A DNA stretch of 5,590 bases from Candidatus Eiseniibacteriota bacterium. GTDB lineage: Bacteria; Arandabacterota; Arandabacteria; JAGLYR01. Shown here one piece after another: positions 1,710 to 5,590 of the stretch. A program made the position numbers and the translations under genes. Numbering within the stretch: the stretch's first letter is position 1; each line of letters begins with the position of its first letter. Location: contig JAGLYR010000095.1 in NCBI GenBank assembly GCA_023132135.1, forward strand, positions 1-5,590. Reading direction: 5' to 3'. The notes under the pieces were generated by a model. That model saw only the letters and a list, made by a program, of their open reading frames with translations. It did no database searches and was not told the origin of the DNA.

Positions 1710-2777
1710 ATGCGGCACGCGGTTCGCGCAGCGACCACCATGTTCTTCGTCATTCTTCCCGGATGCATCTTCGGGGGCAACGGCTCCAACCATCCTCCCG
1801 TGATTGAATCGCTGTCCGCAGATCCTGTTTCCGTAGAACCCGGCGGTGTCGTGACGCTGATTGTGCAGGCTTCCGACCGGGACGGCGACAGGCTTCGGTA
1901 TCTCTGGGAAGCTACGTGCGGGAACTTCCCCGACGGCAGTCAGGCGTCGTCGGTGGCATGGCAGGCGCCGCGCTGCACGTGCGTTTGCACGCTGACAGCG
2001 GAGGTCAGCGACGGAAAAGACGAAGCCCGCCGGCAGATCGCTATCCAGGTCCGGGAGTCGGGAAACGAAGAGGCGGAGTACTCCTACCAGGTTGTCAATC
2101 GCTATCCCCACGACCCGGACGCCTATACCCAGGGTCTGGTCTTCAGCAATGGATGTCTCTACGAAGGGACCGGACTGCGGGGTGAATCTTCCCTGCGCCG
2201 AGTGGATCTGGAAACCGGCGCCGTCCTGCAGAAGTGGGATCTGCCCCGCCCGTACTTCGGCGAGGGGATTACACTCCTCGATGATCGGATCATCCAGCTC
2301 ACGTTGCATTCACACGTAGGATTCATCTATGATCGGGAAACGTTCGATTCCCTGGGTGTGTTCTCCTACCCGAGGGATGGTTGGGGGCTCACCCACGACG
2401 GGTCGCGTCTCATCACGAGCGACGGAAACCCGGCCCTCTACTTCCTGGATCCGGAGACCTACGAGGATCTGGGGGAGATTTCCGTCTATTCCGACGACGA
2501 TTCGGTGTTGCGGCTCAACGAGCTCGAGTACATCGACGGCGAGGTTTTCGCCAACGTGTGGCTCACCGACCGCATCGCGTGCATCAATCCCGAGACCGGC
2601 CGCGTTACAGCGTGGATAGACCTCCGCGGGCTTCTGACGCCGGAAGAAACCGTGCCGGCCGGGGGCGTCCTCAACGGCATCGCCTGGGACGCGGAGAACG
2701 AACGGCTGTTCGTGACCGGCAAGTACTGGCCATGGGTGTTTGAGATTGAACTGATAATGATCAATGATCCGCGCTAA
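1710..2777 (+). CDS. Predicted lipoprotein: PKD-like domain plus plant-type glutaminyl-peptide cyclotransferase
   Basis: The protein has 355 residues. The ATG at 1710 is chosen because it gives a short charged N-terminus, a hydrophobic core and the lipobox LPGC (Cys19); a GAGGA lies 12 bases upstream. Earlier in-frame starts add an Arg/Pro/Ser-rich leader that would bury the signal peptide. Residues 28-115 resemble an Ig/PKD fold (DRDGD at 57-61) with Cys70, 89, 91 and 93. Residues 125-348 match the papaya-type glutaminyl cyclase propeller (YTQGL, EGTGL, FGEGIT, GWGLT, LNELEY, VLNGIAWD, VTGKYWP). The family turns N-terminal Gln into pyroglutamate on exported proteins; here it would act at the cell envelope. 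Q141, E185, W225, N270, W284 and K338 fit the known active-site positions, but the expected Trp after QLT is Leu199. The closest alternative is a non-enzymatic member of the same fold. Confidence 0.87.
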   Translation: MRHAVRAATTMFFVILPGCIFGGNGSNHPPVIESLSADPVSVEPGGVVTLIVQASDRDGDRLRYLWEATCGNFPDGSQASSVAWQAPRCTCVCTLTAEVSDGKDEARRQIAIQVRESGNEEAEYSYQVVNRYPHDPDAYTQGLVFSNGCLYEGTGLRGESSLRRVDLETGAVLQKWDLPRPYFGEGITLLDDRIIQLTLHSHVGFIYDRETFDSLGVFSYPRDGWGLTHDGSRLITSDGNPALYFLDPETYEDLGEISVYSDDDSVLRLNELEYIDGEVFANVWLTDRIACINPETGRVTAWIDLRGLLTPEETVPAGGVLNGIAWDAENERLFVTGKYWPWVFEIELIMINDPR

Positions 2778-3742
2778 ACGGATTCGCATTTCACGGCGGC
2801 CAGGATGTCCTGGATCCTTGCCTTCGCAAGACAGAGGCTGTAGTCCGCCGCACCGTAGTACAGCCAGACCTCATCTCCCCGGACTATGGCGCCGCTCGAG
2901 AACACCACGTTGGGCGCATCGCCGTTTCTCTCGTAGTCCTCCTCGGGACCAAGCAGCCAGCGGCGGGCGCGGCCGATGAGCTTGGTCGGATCATTCCGGT
3001 CGAGGAGTGCAGCTCCCATCCGGTAGATAGGACCTCCGGCCACCTCCTTGACTCCGTGATAGATCAGCAGCCAGCCGTCATCGGTTTCGATAGGAGACGG
3101 GCCCGCACCCACGCGGACGGCGTCCCACCAGGGCCCTCCGCGGGCGGGGACCACCATCGACGGTTTGCCCCAGAAGACCAGGTCCGGGGAGTAGGAAATC
3201 CAGACGCTTCCGCCGCCCACCGAGGGGCGATGGAGCATTGCGTAGTGTCCGTTGAATCTGCACGGGAAGAGAGCGGCGTTCTTGTCGTCGGGAGGGATAA
3301 CCAGGCCAAGCCTCTCAACGGTCTGGAAATCCTGCGTCTTGGCCAGCGCCACTCCGGGACCTTGGCCGGTGTATGCGACGTAGGCGAGAACCCAGGCATC
3401 CAGTTCGTCAACCCATGTGACACGGCAATCCTCAACCCCGCTGGCCTCGTACAGGTATCCGTCCTCAGGATGAAGCAGGGCGCGGTCGTCTATCCGCCAG
3501 CCCCCGACCCCGTCCTTGCTCCGCGCCACGATGAGGTGGGAACGTCCCGAGCAGGTCTCGACACGCAACAGGAGTATGACCTCGTGGCCCAGATCCGCCG
3601 CGGCCGCGTTGAAAACGGCGTTTGCCTGGTAGGGCAAGTCCTTGACACTGAGAAGGGGATTGCGAGAGCTCCTGATGAACAGCCCCTGGGCATTCGCCTG
3701 TTTCTGTTCCAGCTCCGGTGAAGTGCGTAGTTGCTCGCTCAT
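2774..3742 (-). CDS. GH130-family glycoside phosphorylase (mannoside-acting) or related glycosidase
   Basis: The protein has 322 residues, about the usual size for the shorter GH130 members. The ATG at 3742-3740 is preceded by AGGGAAG six or so bases upstream, and recognisable GH130 homology begins inside this start. Visible family features are GVEDCRV (102-108), DDKNAALFP (152-160), MLHRP (169-173), SPDLVFWG (185-192), GPWWD (203-207), GAGPSPI (212-218), IYHGV (227-231), ALLDRNDP (245-252), PNVVFSSG (277-284) and YYGAAD (295-300). GH130 enzymes are five-bladed propellers that phosphorolyse beta-mannosides, releasing mannose 1-phosphate; some are hydrolases. Asp105 is the likely proton donor. 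No signal peptide is seen, so a cytoplasmic enzyme is likely. The substrate cannot be told from sequence alone. Its stop overlaps that of the convergent cyclase gene. Confidence 0.88.
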   Translation of the reverse strand: MSEQLRTSPELEQKQANAQGLFIRSSRNPLLSVKDLPYQANAVFNAAAADLGHEVILLLRVETCSGRSHLIVARSKDGVGGWRIDDRALLHPEDGYLYEASGVEDCRVTWVDELDAWVLAYVAYTGQGPGVALAKTQDFQTVERLGLVIPPDDKNAALFPCRFNGHYAMLHRPSVGGGSVWISYSPDLVFWGKPSMVVPARGGPWWDAVRVGAGPSPIETDDGWLLIYHGVKEVAGGPIYRMGAALLDRNDPTKLIGRARRWLLGPEEDYERNGDAPNVVFSSGAIVRGDEVWLYYGAADYSLCLAKARIQDILAAVKCESV

Positions 3743-4028: not shown

Positions 4029-4057
4029 TTGACATGGTCTGCCGGGTGTGGTAGAAT
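4029..4057 (+). promoter_or_regulatory. Strong sigma-70-type promoter of the trp leader/trpE unit
   Basis: TTGACA (4029-4034) is a perfect -35. It is followed by exactly 17 bases and TAGAAT (4052-4057), a 5-of-6 match to the -10, and TGG (4049-4051) supplies an extended -10. Transcription should start at about 4064-4066, roughly 60 bases before the leader peptide start. No TrpR-like operator palindrome was recognised over it, which fits control by attenuation rather than repression. Confidence 0.87.
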
Positions 4058-4069
4058 CACTTGTGATCG

Positions 4070-4085
4070 GGCCCCGGGCGGGGCC
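4070..4085 (+). other. GC-rich hairpin at the 5' end of the trp leader RNA
   Basis: GGCCCC (4070-4075) and GGGGCC (4080-4085) form a 6-bp all-GC stem with a GGGC loop, about five bases from the predicted transcript start and followed by TTT. Three U are probably too few for efficient termination. It may stabilise the 5' end or slow early elongation so that a ribosome can load. Confidence 0.5.
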
Positions 4086-4123
4086 TTTGTGCAGGACCCG
4101 GTAGAGAAGGACAGACGGAGAAG

Positions 4124-4258
4124 ATGAACCGGAAATCGACATACGGCGTTGGCGCTGCGGTCCAGCGATACCGGCAGGCGCTTCGATACTGGTGGCGATG
4201 GTATTACACCATTTCCACCAGCGTAGTGGCACCTGTGTACGTCATAGATTCCGGTTAG
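4124..4258 (+). CDS. trpL: trp operon leader peptide (44 aa, Trp-rich)
   Basis: A 44-codon reading frame runs from ATG 4124 to TAG 4256-4258. A purine-rich GGAGAAG precedes the ATG directly, and AAGGA lies further upstream. Codons 22-28 read Tyr-Trp-Trp-Arg-Trp-Tyr-Tyr, with Trp at 23, 24 and 26. Trp is rare, so three in four codons directly before a terminator and trpE is the hallmark of a ribosome-sensed attenuator. The peptide itself probably has no function; its translation reports charged tRNA-Trp. It is much longer than the 14-residue enterobacterial TrpL and carries 16 further codons (29-44) after the sensing cluster. The sequence is not one I recognise as an annotated leader, and the name is given by role. 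Confidence 0.85.
   Translation: MNRKSTYGVGAAVQRYRQALRYWWRWYYTISTSVVAPVYVIDSG
4175..4235 (+). promoter_or_regulatory. Attenuator 1:2 stem over the Trp codons
   Basis: Bases 4175-4202 fold back on 4208-4235 with a five-base loop (4203-4207) and no bulges. Pairing blocks are CAGG 4175-4178 with CCTG 4232-4235, a GC-rich block 4189-4195 with 4215-4221, and ATGGT 4198-4202 with ACCAT 4208-4212. Five isolated mismatches and a few G-U pairs interrupt the stem. The left arm contains all three Trp codons and the right arm overlaps the antiterminator strand 4223-4240. A ribosome paused at the Trp codons would block this stem. Confidence 0.78.
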
Positions 4259-4292
4259 ATTCACTTGAAAGACCGAGTACACAGCCCACTAC
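4223..4292 (+). promoter_or_regulatory. trp antiterminator (2:3 pairing)
   Basis: GTAGTGG (4223-4229) is complementary to CCACTAC (4286-4292), and CTGTGTAC (4233-4240) to GTACACAG (4277-4284), giving 15 pairs around a small internal loop. The structure consumes the left arm of the terminator (4283-4293) and excludes the upstream stem. It would form when the ribosome pauses at the Trp codons, allowing read-through into trpE. The leader peptide stop lies in its 36-base loop, so a ribosome that finishes the peptide would disrupt it. Confidence 0.78.
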
Positions 4293-4312
4293 CAAGGGGT
4301 AGTGGGCTTTTT
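4283..4312 (+). terminator. trp attenuator: intrinsic terminator before trpE
   Basis: AGCCCACTACC (4283-4293) and GGTAGTGGGCT (4298-4308) form a perfect 11-bp stem with an AAGG loop, running into a T-tract (4308-4312). It lies 30 bases upstream of the trpE start, inside the leader transcript, so it can only be a conditional terminator. High charged tRNA-Trp should favour it. Confidence 0.93.
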
Positions 4313-4342
4313 CTATACCTGCGGACAAAAGAGGAACCTGCA

Positions 4343-5590
4343 ATGCTGACACCTTCACTCGAGGAATTCCTGAAGCTGGCGAAGGAGGGGAAGAAAGTCC
4401 CTCTCCGTAGACGGATCCCCGCGGACCTGGAGACTCCGGTTTCCGCTTTCCTGAAGCTCAAGCCCGCGGGAGCGGTATTCCTGCTGGAGAGTGTTGAGCA
4501 GGGGATCCAGGTTGGACGCTACTCATTCATCGGGATCTCGCCCTATGCCAGCATTGCTCTTCGCAACGGCGCGGCGGAGATCCGGAAGGGGAGGGAATCG
4601 CACCGCGTCGAGGCCGCTGCCGGGGACCCCTTTGCCCCTGTTCGGGAGGAGCTTGGCCGCTCGGAGTTCTGTCTGGACGACCGCCTCCCAGGTCCCTTCG
4701 CAGGTGCGGTGGGCTACATCTCCTACGATCTGGTCCGGCGTTTCGAGAAGATTCCCATGCCGGATGGCCCCGGACTCGGATTGCCTGACTACCAGTTTCT
4801 TTTTCCCGAAACTGTTGCGGTCTTCGACCACGTGAAGAGCGAAATCGAGATTCTCACACTGCCTCCCAACTGGAAACCGGAGGAAGCCTACGCTGCGGCG
4901 CGCGGCCAGATCGAGTCCCTCATCGCGGCTCTGGAGGCGCCCCTCCACGGGGATCGTACGCGGGGTGTTGCAGGAGGAGGGCAACAGCCGGCCTCCAACA
5001 TGCCGAGGGAAGCGTTCGAAGAGAAAGTCCTCCGGGCCAAGGAGCACATCCTTGCCGGCGACGCCTTCCAGATTGTGCTCTCCCAGCGCCTTGGCGGACA
5101 CACGACAGCATCTCCCTTCCAGATCTACCGGGCGCTCAGGATTCTCAACCCGTCGCCCTACATGTTTTTCGTCGATTTCGGGGATTTTCAACTGGTCGGT
5201 TCCTCTCCCGAAGTGCTGGTCAAACTGGAGAAGGGCAAGGCGACTCTCTGCCCCATTGCCGGCACCCGGCCGAGGGGCGCCACGCCGGCCGAGGACGGGA
5301 AACTGGAAGAGGAACTCATGTCCGACGAAAAGGAACTGGCGGAACACACGATGCTCGTCGACCTGGGGCGGAACGATCTCGGCCGGGTCTGCGAAACGGG
5401 AAGCGTTGTCACGGAGTCCCTGATGCAGGTGGAGAAGTACTCTCACGTGATGCACATCGTGTCCAGGATCACGGGAAAGCTCCGGGCGGACCTGGACATG
5501 TTCGAACTCCTCAGGGCCGGCTTCCCGGCGGGAACGGTCACAGGAGCTCCCAAGATCCGGGCGATGGAGATTATCAGCGACCTCGAGGGA
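4343..5590 (+). CDS. trpE: Anthranilate synthase component I (3' end beyond window)
   Basis: The first 416 residues of TrpE are present with no stop before the window edge; about 70-100 residues are missing judged by family length. The ATG at 4343 has GAGGAA eight bases upstream. TrpE converts chorismate to anthranilate, using ammonia from the TrpG glutaminase subunit, as the first committed step of Trp synthesis in the cytoplasm. Visible features are the LLES motif (47-50) and NPSPYM (269-274), both part of the allosteric Trp site in the family, then PIAGTRPRG (304-312), DLGRNDLGRV (340-349) and GTVTGAPK (397-404) of the chorismate-binding catalytic domain. Retained LLES and NPSPYM predict feedback inhibition by Trp in addition to the upstream attenuator. 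PabB and isochorismate synthase are less likely given these motifs and the Trp leader. Whether trpG is fused or follows cannot be seen. Confidence 0.95.
   Translation, partial: MLTPSLEEFLKLAKEGKKVPLRRRIPADLETPVSAFLKLKPAGAVFLLESVEQGIQVGRYSFIGISPYASIALRNGAAEIRKGRESHRVEAAAGDPFAPVREELGRSEFCLDDRLPGPFAGAVGYISYDLVRRFEKIPMPDGPGLGLPDYQFLFPETVAVFDHVKSEIEILTLPPNWKPEEAYAAARGQIESLIAALEAPLHGDRTRGVAGGGQQPASNMPREAFEEKVLRAKEHILAGDAFQIVLSQRLGGHTTASPFQIYRALRILNPSPYMFFVDFGDFQLVGSSPEVLVKLEKGKATLCPIAGTRPRGATPAEDGKLEEELMSDEKELAEHTMLVDLGRNDLGRVCETGSVVTESLMQVEKYSHVMHIVSRITGKLRADLDMFELLRAGFPAGTVTGAPKIRAMEIISDLEG

Follow-up and report, generated by a model that had tools for sequence, protein, structure and literature searches.

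The window (the whole stretch of 5,590 nucleotides that was analysed) is contig C341 of a 3.4-Mb genome, which is 96% complete and consists of 345 contigs. Positions 1-1562 encode a protein with repeated D-x-D-N-D-G-D motifs (FG-GAP/VCBS-like) and a C-terminal domain that resembles T9SS sorting and FlgD domains. On the minus strand, positions 2777-3742 encode a beta-1,2-mannobiose phosphorylase-like enzyme (GH130 type), which is divergent from the trp leader. A partial trpE (TIGR00564, E = 1e-128) occupies 4343-5590 on the plus strand and runs off the contig end, and the remainder of the gene is found on contig C342 of the same genome, G000 (L104, 1-11869). The junction of the two contigs was placed by trpE residues 416 and 427, with about 10 codons of trpE missing between them, and the contigs probably form one operon. 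On C342, the rest of trpE is followed by trpG, trpD, trpC, trpF, trpB, and trpA, and after trpA by DAHP synthase, aroA, aroE, aroC, an aroK-aroB fusion, and aroQ, with the whole run on one strand. The C341-C342 operon covers the pathway from DAHP synthase through to tryptophan without a missing step. The gene order was identical in G003 (L107) and two Krumholzibacteriota genomes, G120 (L109) and G116 (L110), the last up to the contig end at aroB. L114 has a near-identical gene set, and most other genomes have the trp genes and DAHP synthase. Both trpE and the trp and aro genes downstream belong to the pathway cognate to the leader described below.

In a TrpE scan of the named genomes, the nearest relatives, at 64-65% identity, came from JALGZR010000082.1 (L032) and from a genome of Candidatus Krumholzibacteriia (L033). 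The TrpE of the window is 64-65% identical to those of Krumholzibacteriota vs 50-51% to that of its class-mate G003. Mis-binning of the 5.6-kb contig was considered and rejected because its G+C content (0.610 vs 0.598-0.614) and tetranucleotide profile match its own genome. The tetranucleotide profile of contigs 341 and 342 scored 0.69 to their own genome (own-genome controls, 0.62-0.74), 0.56 to Krumholzibacteriota, and 0.50 to class-mates. Lateral transfer of the trp operon into this genome is possible. A close trpE was present in only two of the eight genomes of the window's phylum; G001, G002, and G004-G007 may have lost Trp synthesis, or these genomes may be incomplete.

Upstream of trpE there is a sigma-70-type promoter at 4029-4057 on the plus strand (TTGACA-17-TAGAAT, with an extended -10). 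It has 11 of 12 consensus matches and a TG ahead of the -10, as expected from the near-consensus promoter claimed by the earlier note, and the shuffled region had a mean of 0.3 promoter-like sites. TTGAC...TATxAT-like sites were also found upstream of many relatives' leaders. In the folds, the predicted transcript begins with a strong hairpin rich in G+C (4069-4086), and L032 has a similar hairpin (GGTCCCGAAC...GTTCGGGCC). The leader peptide ORF, on the plus strand at 4124-4258, has 44 codons (MNRKSTYGVGAAVQRYRQALRYWWRWYYTISTSVVAPVYVIDSG), and homologous or analogous ORFs are present in 26 relatives. An SD-like GGAG is only 3 bases from the leader ATG, which is a short spacing, and the stop codon is at 4256-4258. 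The frame contains the claimed Trp-Trp-Arg-Trp at codons 23-26 (4190-4201), with Trp at 23, 24, and 26 and flanking Tyr codons at 22, 27, and 28. The ending GATTCCGGTTAG (DSG and stop) is common to the window and L032. From the first Trp codon to the stop there are 21 codons in the window and 8-24 across the set of 27 leaders (the window and its 26 relatives), vs 5 in E. coli trpL. The window ORF therefore covers the left arm of the antiterminator.

Three structures could be located in the leader RNA, whose folding stability had a z of -4.6 against shuffles. The 1:2 hairpin over the Trp codons (4177-4233, plus strand) has a 7-bp core, 4189-4195 with 4215-4221, which formed with a probability of about 0.995 when free of the ribosome. 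The core is accompanied by a GAUGGU/ACCAUU helix above it and, below, by a weaker stem that extends to about 4177-4233. The left arm of the antiterminator (segment 2, 4223-4240) is within the leader ORF and pairs with the right arm (segment 3, 4277-4292), of which 4283-4292 are shared with the left arm of the terminator. Pairing of 4223-4229 with 4286-4292 (7/7) and of 4233-4240 with 4277-4284 (8/8) gives 15 pairs, all of them standard, and the antiterminator has a dG of -25.8 kcal/mol including flanking pairs (z -5.9). The intrinsic terminator and its U-tract (4283-4313, plus strand) are between the leader ORF and the first gene, 34 bases upstream of trpE. The terminator has a perfect 11-bp stem (4283-4308), a loop of 4, and TTTTC, with -20.6 kcal/mol, and it is mutually exclusive with the antiterminator. 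Thus, the competing antiterminator (4223-4292), the perfect terminator (4283-4312), and the order of the parts before trpE were all found where the earlier note had placed them. Its stem over the Trp codons (4175-4235) also exists, but the conflict with the antiterminator is limited to the lower stem (4223-4233), and the 7-bp core is compatible with 2:3 pairing.

Short ORFs and terminators can each arise by chance, and a chance ORF before the ordinary terminator of an upstream transcript would give a similar picture. Of 20,000 dinucleotide-shuffled versions of the region, 39 contained an ORF with three Trp among four codons and 21 a terminator (a stem of at least 10 bp followed by TTTT), but none contained both. 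Moreover, the gene upstream (2777-3742) is encoded by the other strand, a promoter is just upstream of the ORF, and the layout is conserved. A chance arrangement is therefore extremely unlikely.

We searched the phylum containing L033 for TrpE and obtained about 30 further loci. Upstream of trpE, 26 leaders besides that of the window combine a short ORF that contains a Trp cluster with a terminator after it. Of these, 25 come from Krumholzibacteriota-type genomes and one from a genome (G003) of the window's own class, and their sequences have diverged. The Trp-codon cluster was kept in all 27 leaders, with a common motif close to W-W-R-W. In G003 (L005), the leader reads ...CYRWCRYYYWPWFDSGLVTILSPG and the terminator AGCCCACTATC/GATAGTGGGTT. 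More distant loci (L004, L023, L036), which were left out of the 27-leader analyses, have similar Trp ORFs with terminators. Covariation was judged on duplex energies, not on an alignment. Compared with shuffled segment 2, the duplex that segment 2 forms with the left arm of the terminator had a mean z of -2.75, with p < 0.05 in 19 of the 27 leaders. When segment 2 was swapped between leaders, the mean energy was -21.2 vs -26.3 kcal/mol for the native pairs, and none of 10,000 permutations was as good; for the window, none of the 26 swaps was as good as its own segment 2. Because of the phylogenetic dependence among the 27 leaders, the swap result is to be read as support and not as a probability. 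Every check from the earlier note that the analysis covered came out in its favour: the leaders upstream of trpE in related genomes contain runs of Trp codons, followed by a terminator with an antiterminator arm to match, and their pairings are compensated.

To model ribosome stalling, the A-site was set at each codon in turn and the downstream RNA alone was folded. In nascent RNA of the window, the antiterminator was predicted to form with the A-site up to codon 33 and its outer half up to codon 29; from codon 34 on it is impossible, as segment 2 is then under the ribosome. When the full leader was folded, the predicted terminator probability was 0.75 with the A-site at codon 23, 0.52 at codon 24, and 0.49 at codon 25; it was 0.999 for the ribosome-free leader and also for a ribosome at the stop. 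Moving the A-site to codon 26 brought the full-length equilibrium back to the terminator (0.986). For the 27 leaders, mean antiterminator pairing was 0.83 with the ribosome stalled at the Trp codons and 0.21 once it had reached the stop, and in 25 of them, including the window, it dropped by at least 0.3 from stall to stop. In a few leaders the terminator was poorly chosen by the automatic procedure (L077 and L080 had a terminator probability of 0.00 in all states). For E. coli trpL, the same treatment gave 0.79 at the stall, 0.30 at the stop, and 0.00 without a ribosome, and therefore the folding method reproduces the textbook case. By strict count, the equilibrium shifted to antitermination in only 7 of the 27 leaders, but no such shift was seen in E. 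coli trpL. Without a ribosome, the antiterminator was still predicted in nascent RNA of the window (0.81, vs 0.00 in E. coli) because the core of the Trp hairpin stops at 4221, short of segment 2; in the leader set this value ranged from 0 to 1. In the model, the core 1:2 hairpin of the window is no strict block to the antiterminator.

Based on these results, we are highly confident that 4029-4342 is a ribosome-mediated tryptophan transcription attenuator, and its layout suggests that the operon would be controlled by Trp in the cell. Transcription would begin just past 4057, and the ribosome would follow RNA polymerase along the 44-codon leader. When charged tRNA-Trp is scarce, the ribosome would halt at codons 23-26 and leave 4223-4240 free to pair with 4277-4292. 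This pairing would block the terminator (4283-4308), so that polymerase would enter trpE. When Trp is plentiful, the ribosome would advance over 4223-4240 to the stop at 4256-4258; with segment 2 masked, the terminator would form and transcription would end near 4312. The switch would set the expression of the trpEGDCFBA-DAHPS-aroA-aroE-aroC-aroKB-aroQ operon. Since the ORF runs through the left arm of the antiterminator, the switch probably works mainly by the ribosome covering segment 2 as it advances. The earlier note's suggestion that a ribosome paused at the Trp codons frees 4223-4240 agrees with the folding, in which the antiterminator is predicted at the stall and lost at the stop. Its appeal to the enterobacterial mechanism is borne out for the modelled stall and stop behaviour, but not for the core hairpin, which can coexist with the antiterminator, or for the ORF, which covers the left arm.

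Alternating terminators and antiterminators before a trp operon are also typical of T-box and TRAP systems. Another sensor (a T-box, a TRAP-like protein, or a riboswitch) might therefore read this leader, with the small ORF being incidental, but the Trp-codon cluster is kept in 27 of 27 leaders. No Rfam family, including T-box and Trp_leader, gave a hit in the window at E ≤ 1, and none reached the gathering threshold in 20 relatives. The window leader has no T-box core motif and does not show the core plus stem I expected of a T-box. TRAP-regulated leaders have about 11 regularly spaced (G/U)AG triplets; the window leader has 8, vs 9.6 expected from shuffles, and their spacing is irregular. 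These readings were rejected on the Rfam, motif, and triplet tests, and we consider another sensor very unlikely. At about 2100-2180 of L034, a 'Phototrophicales' record, a T-box-like leader (AAGGTGGCACCGCGA, then a terminator) precedes a trpE relative, where this gene would have a different sensor.

Ribosome-mediated trp attenuation is known from enterobacteria. Like E. coli trpL, the window has a short leader ORF with Trp codons, 2:3 and 3:4 hairpins as alternatives, and a U-tract terminator before trpE, and it is predicted to behave in the same way in the stall scan. Unlike in E. coli trpL, the leader has 44 amino acids instead of 14, the ORF covers segment 2, and the 1:2 core does not exclude 2:3 pairing. 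A layout with the leader ORF running through the antiterminator arm can thus be compared with that of E. coli. The trp attenuators predicted in Corynebacterium and Streptomyces are classical, with double or triple UGG codons (PMC1262725), and they are the closest described case outside Proteobacteria in the open-licence literature that we searched. As in the leaders studied here, conserved complementary triples are common to the antiterminator and the terminator (PMC1262725). Unlike these actinobacterial leaders, which are from a different phylum and have a gGCC-rGCy-GGCC core, the present ones have CCATCCG-like variants in the terminator arm. In a 2010 survey of premature terminators, leader-peptide attenuators had been shown only in Proteobacteria, Actinobacteria, and the survey's own Firmicutes case (PMC2965389), and we found no paper on attenuators in Krumholzibacteria in the open-licence literature. 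The mechanism is known, but the leader family, which the window has in common with Krumholzibacteria-type bacteria, is undescribed. Within the limits of Rfam and the literature searched, the earlier note's proposal of a possibly new attenuator in this lineage stands. A conserved family of trp attenuators is thereby added across a deep, uncultured bacterial lineage, without an Rfam model. In PMC1173090, attenuated aromatic supraoperons are listed, with large aro/trp clusters apparently behind attenuators. The present operon resembles them in being a big aro/trp cluster behind an attenuator, but differs from them in its gene order (trpEGDCFBA, then DAHPS-aroA-aroE-aroC-aroKB-aroQ). Apparently, the whole shikimate-to-tryptophan operon is behind a single amino-acid-sensing switch.

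Since chorismate from this operon would serve Tyr and Phe synthesis as well, the leader might sense aromatics more broadly, with the ribosome stalling at Trp or at flanking Tyr codons. The motifs Y-W-W-R-W-Y-Y in the window and C-Y-R-W-C-R-Y-Y-Y-W-P-W-F in the class-mate G003 would fit this, and the operons carry DAHP synthase, joined in several genomes by the full set of shikimate genes. Near the Trp cluster, Tyr made up 6.3% of the non-Trp residues (20/316) vs 1.1% elsewhere in the leaders (9/796; Fisher p = 5e-6, which is too optimistic since the leaders are related), and in the same leaders there was no enrichment of Phe beside the cluster. However, only 13 of the 27 leaders have Tyr by the Trp cluster, and L033 and L074 have the full aro set yet no Tyr near it. 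In the window, Tyr codons 27-28 form the A/U-rich loop of the hairpin and thus may be kept for structure. We therefore regard broader aromatic sensing as rather unlikely. Slightly more doubtful still is a dual Trp/Tyr attenuator, in which interleaved codons would gauge the general aromatic supply and set one operon from DAHP synthase to tryptophan. Tyr codons cluster by the Trp codons at 4187-4207 of the window and in the leaders of L005, L072, L075, L077, L080, and L084.
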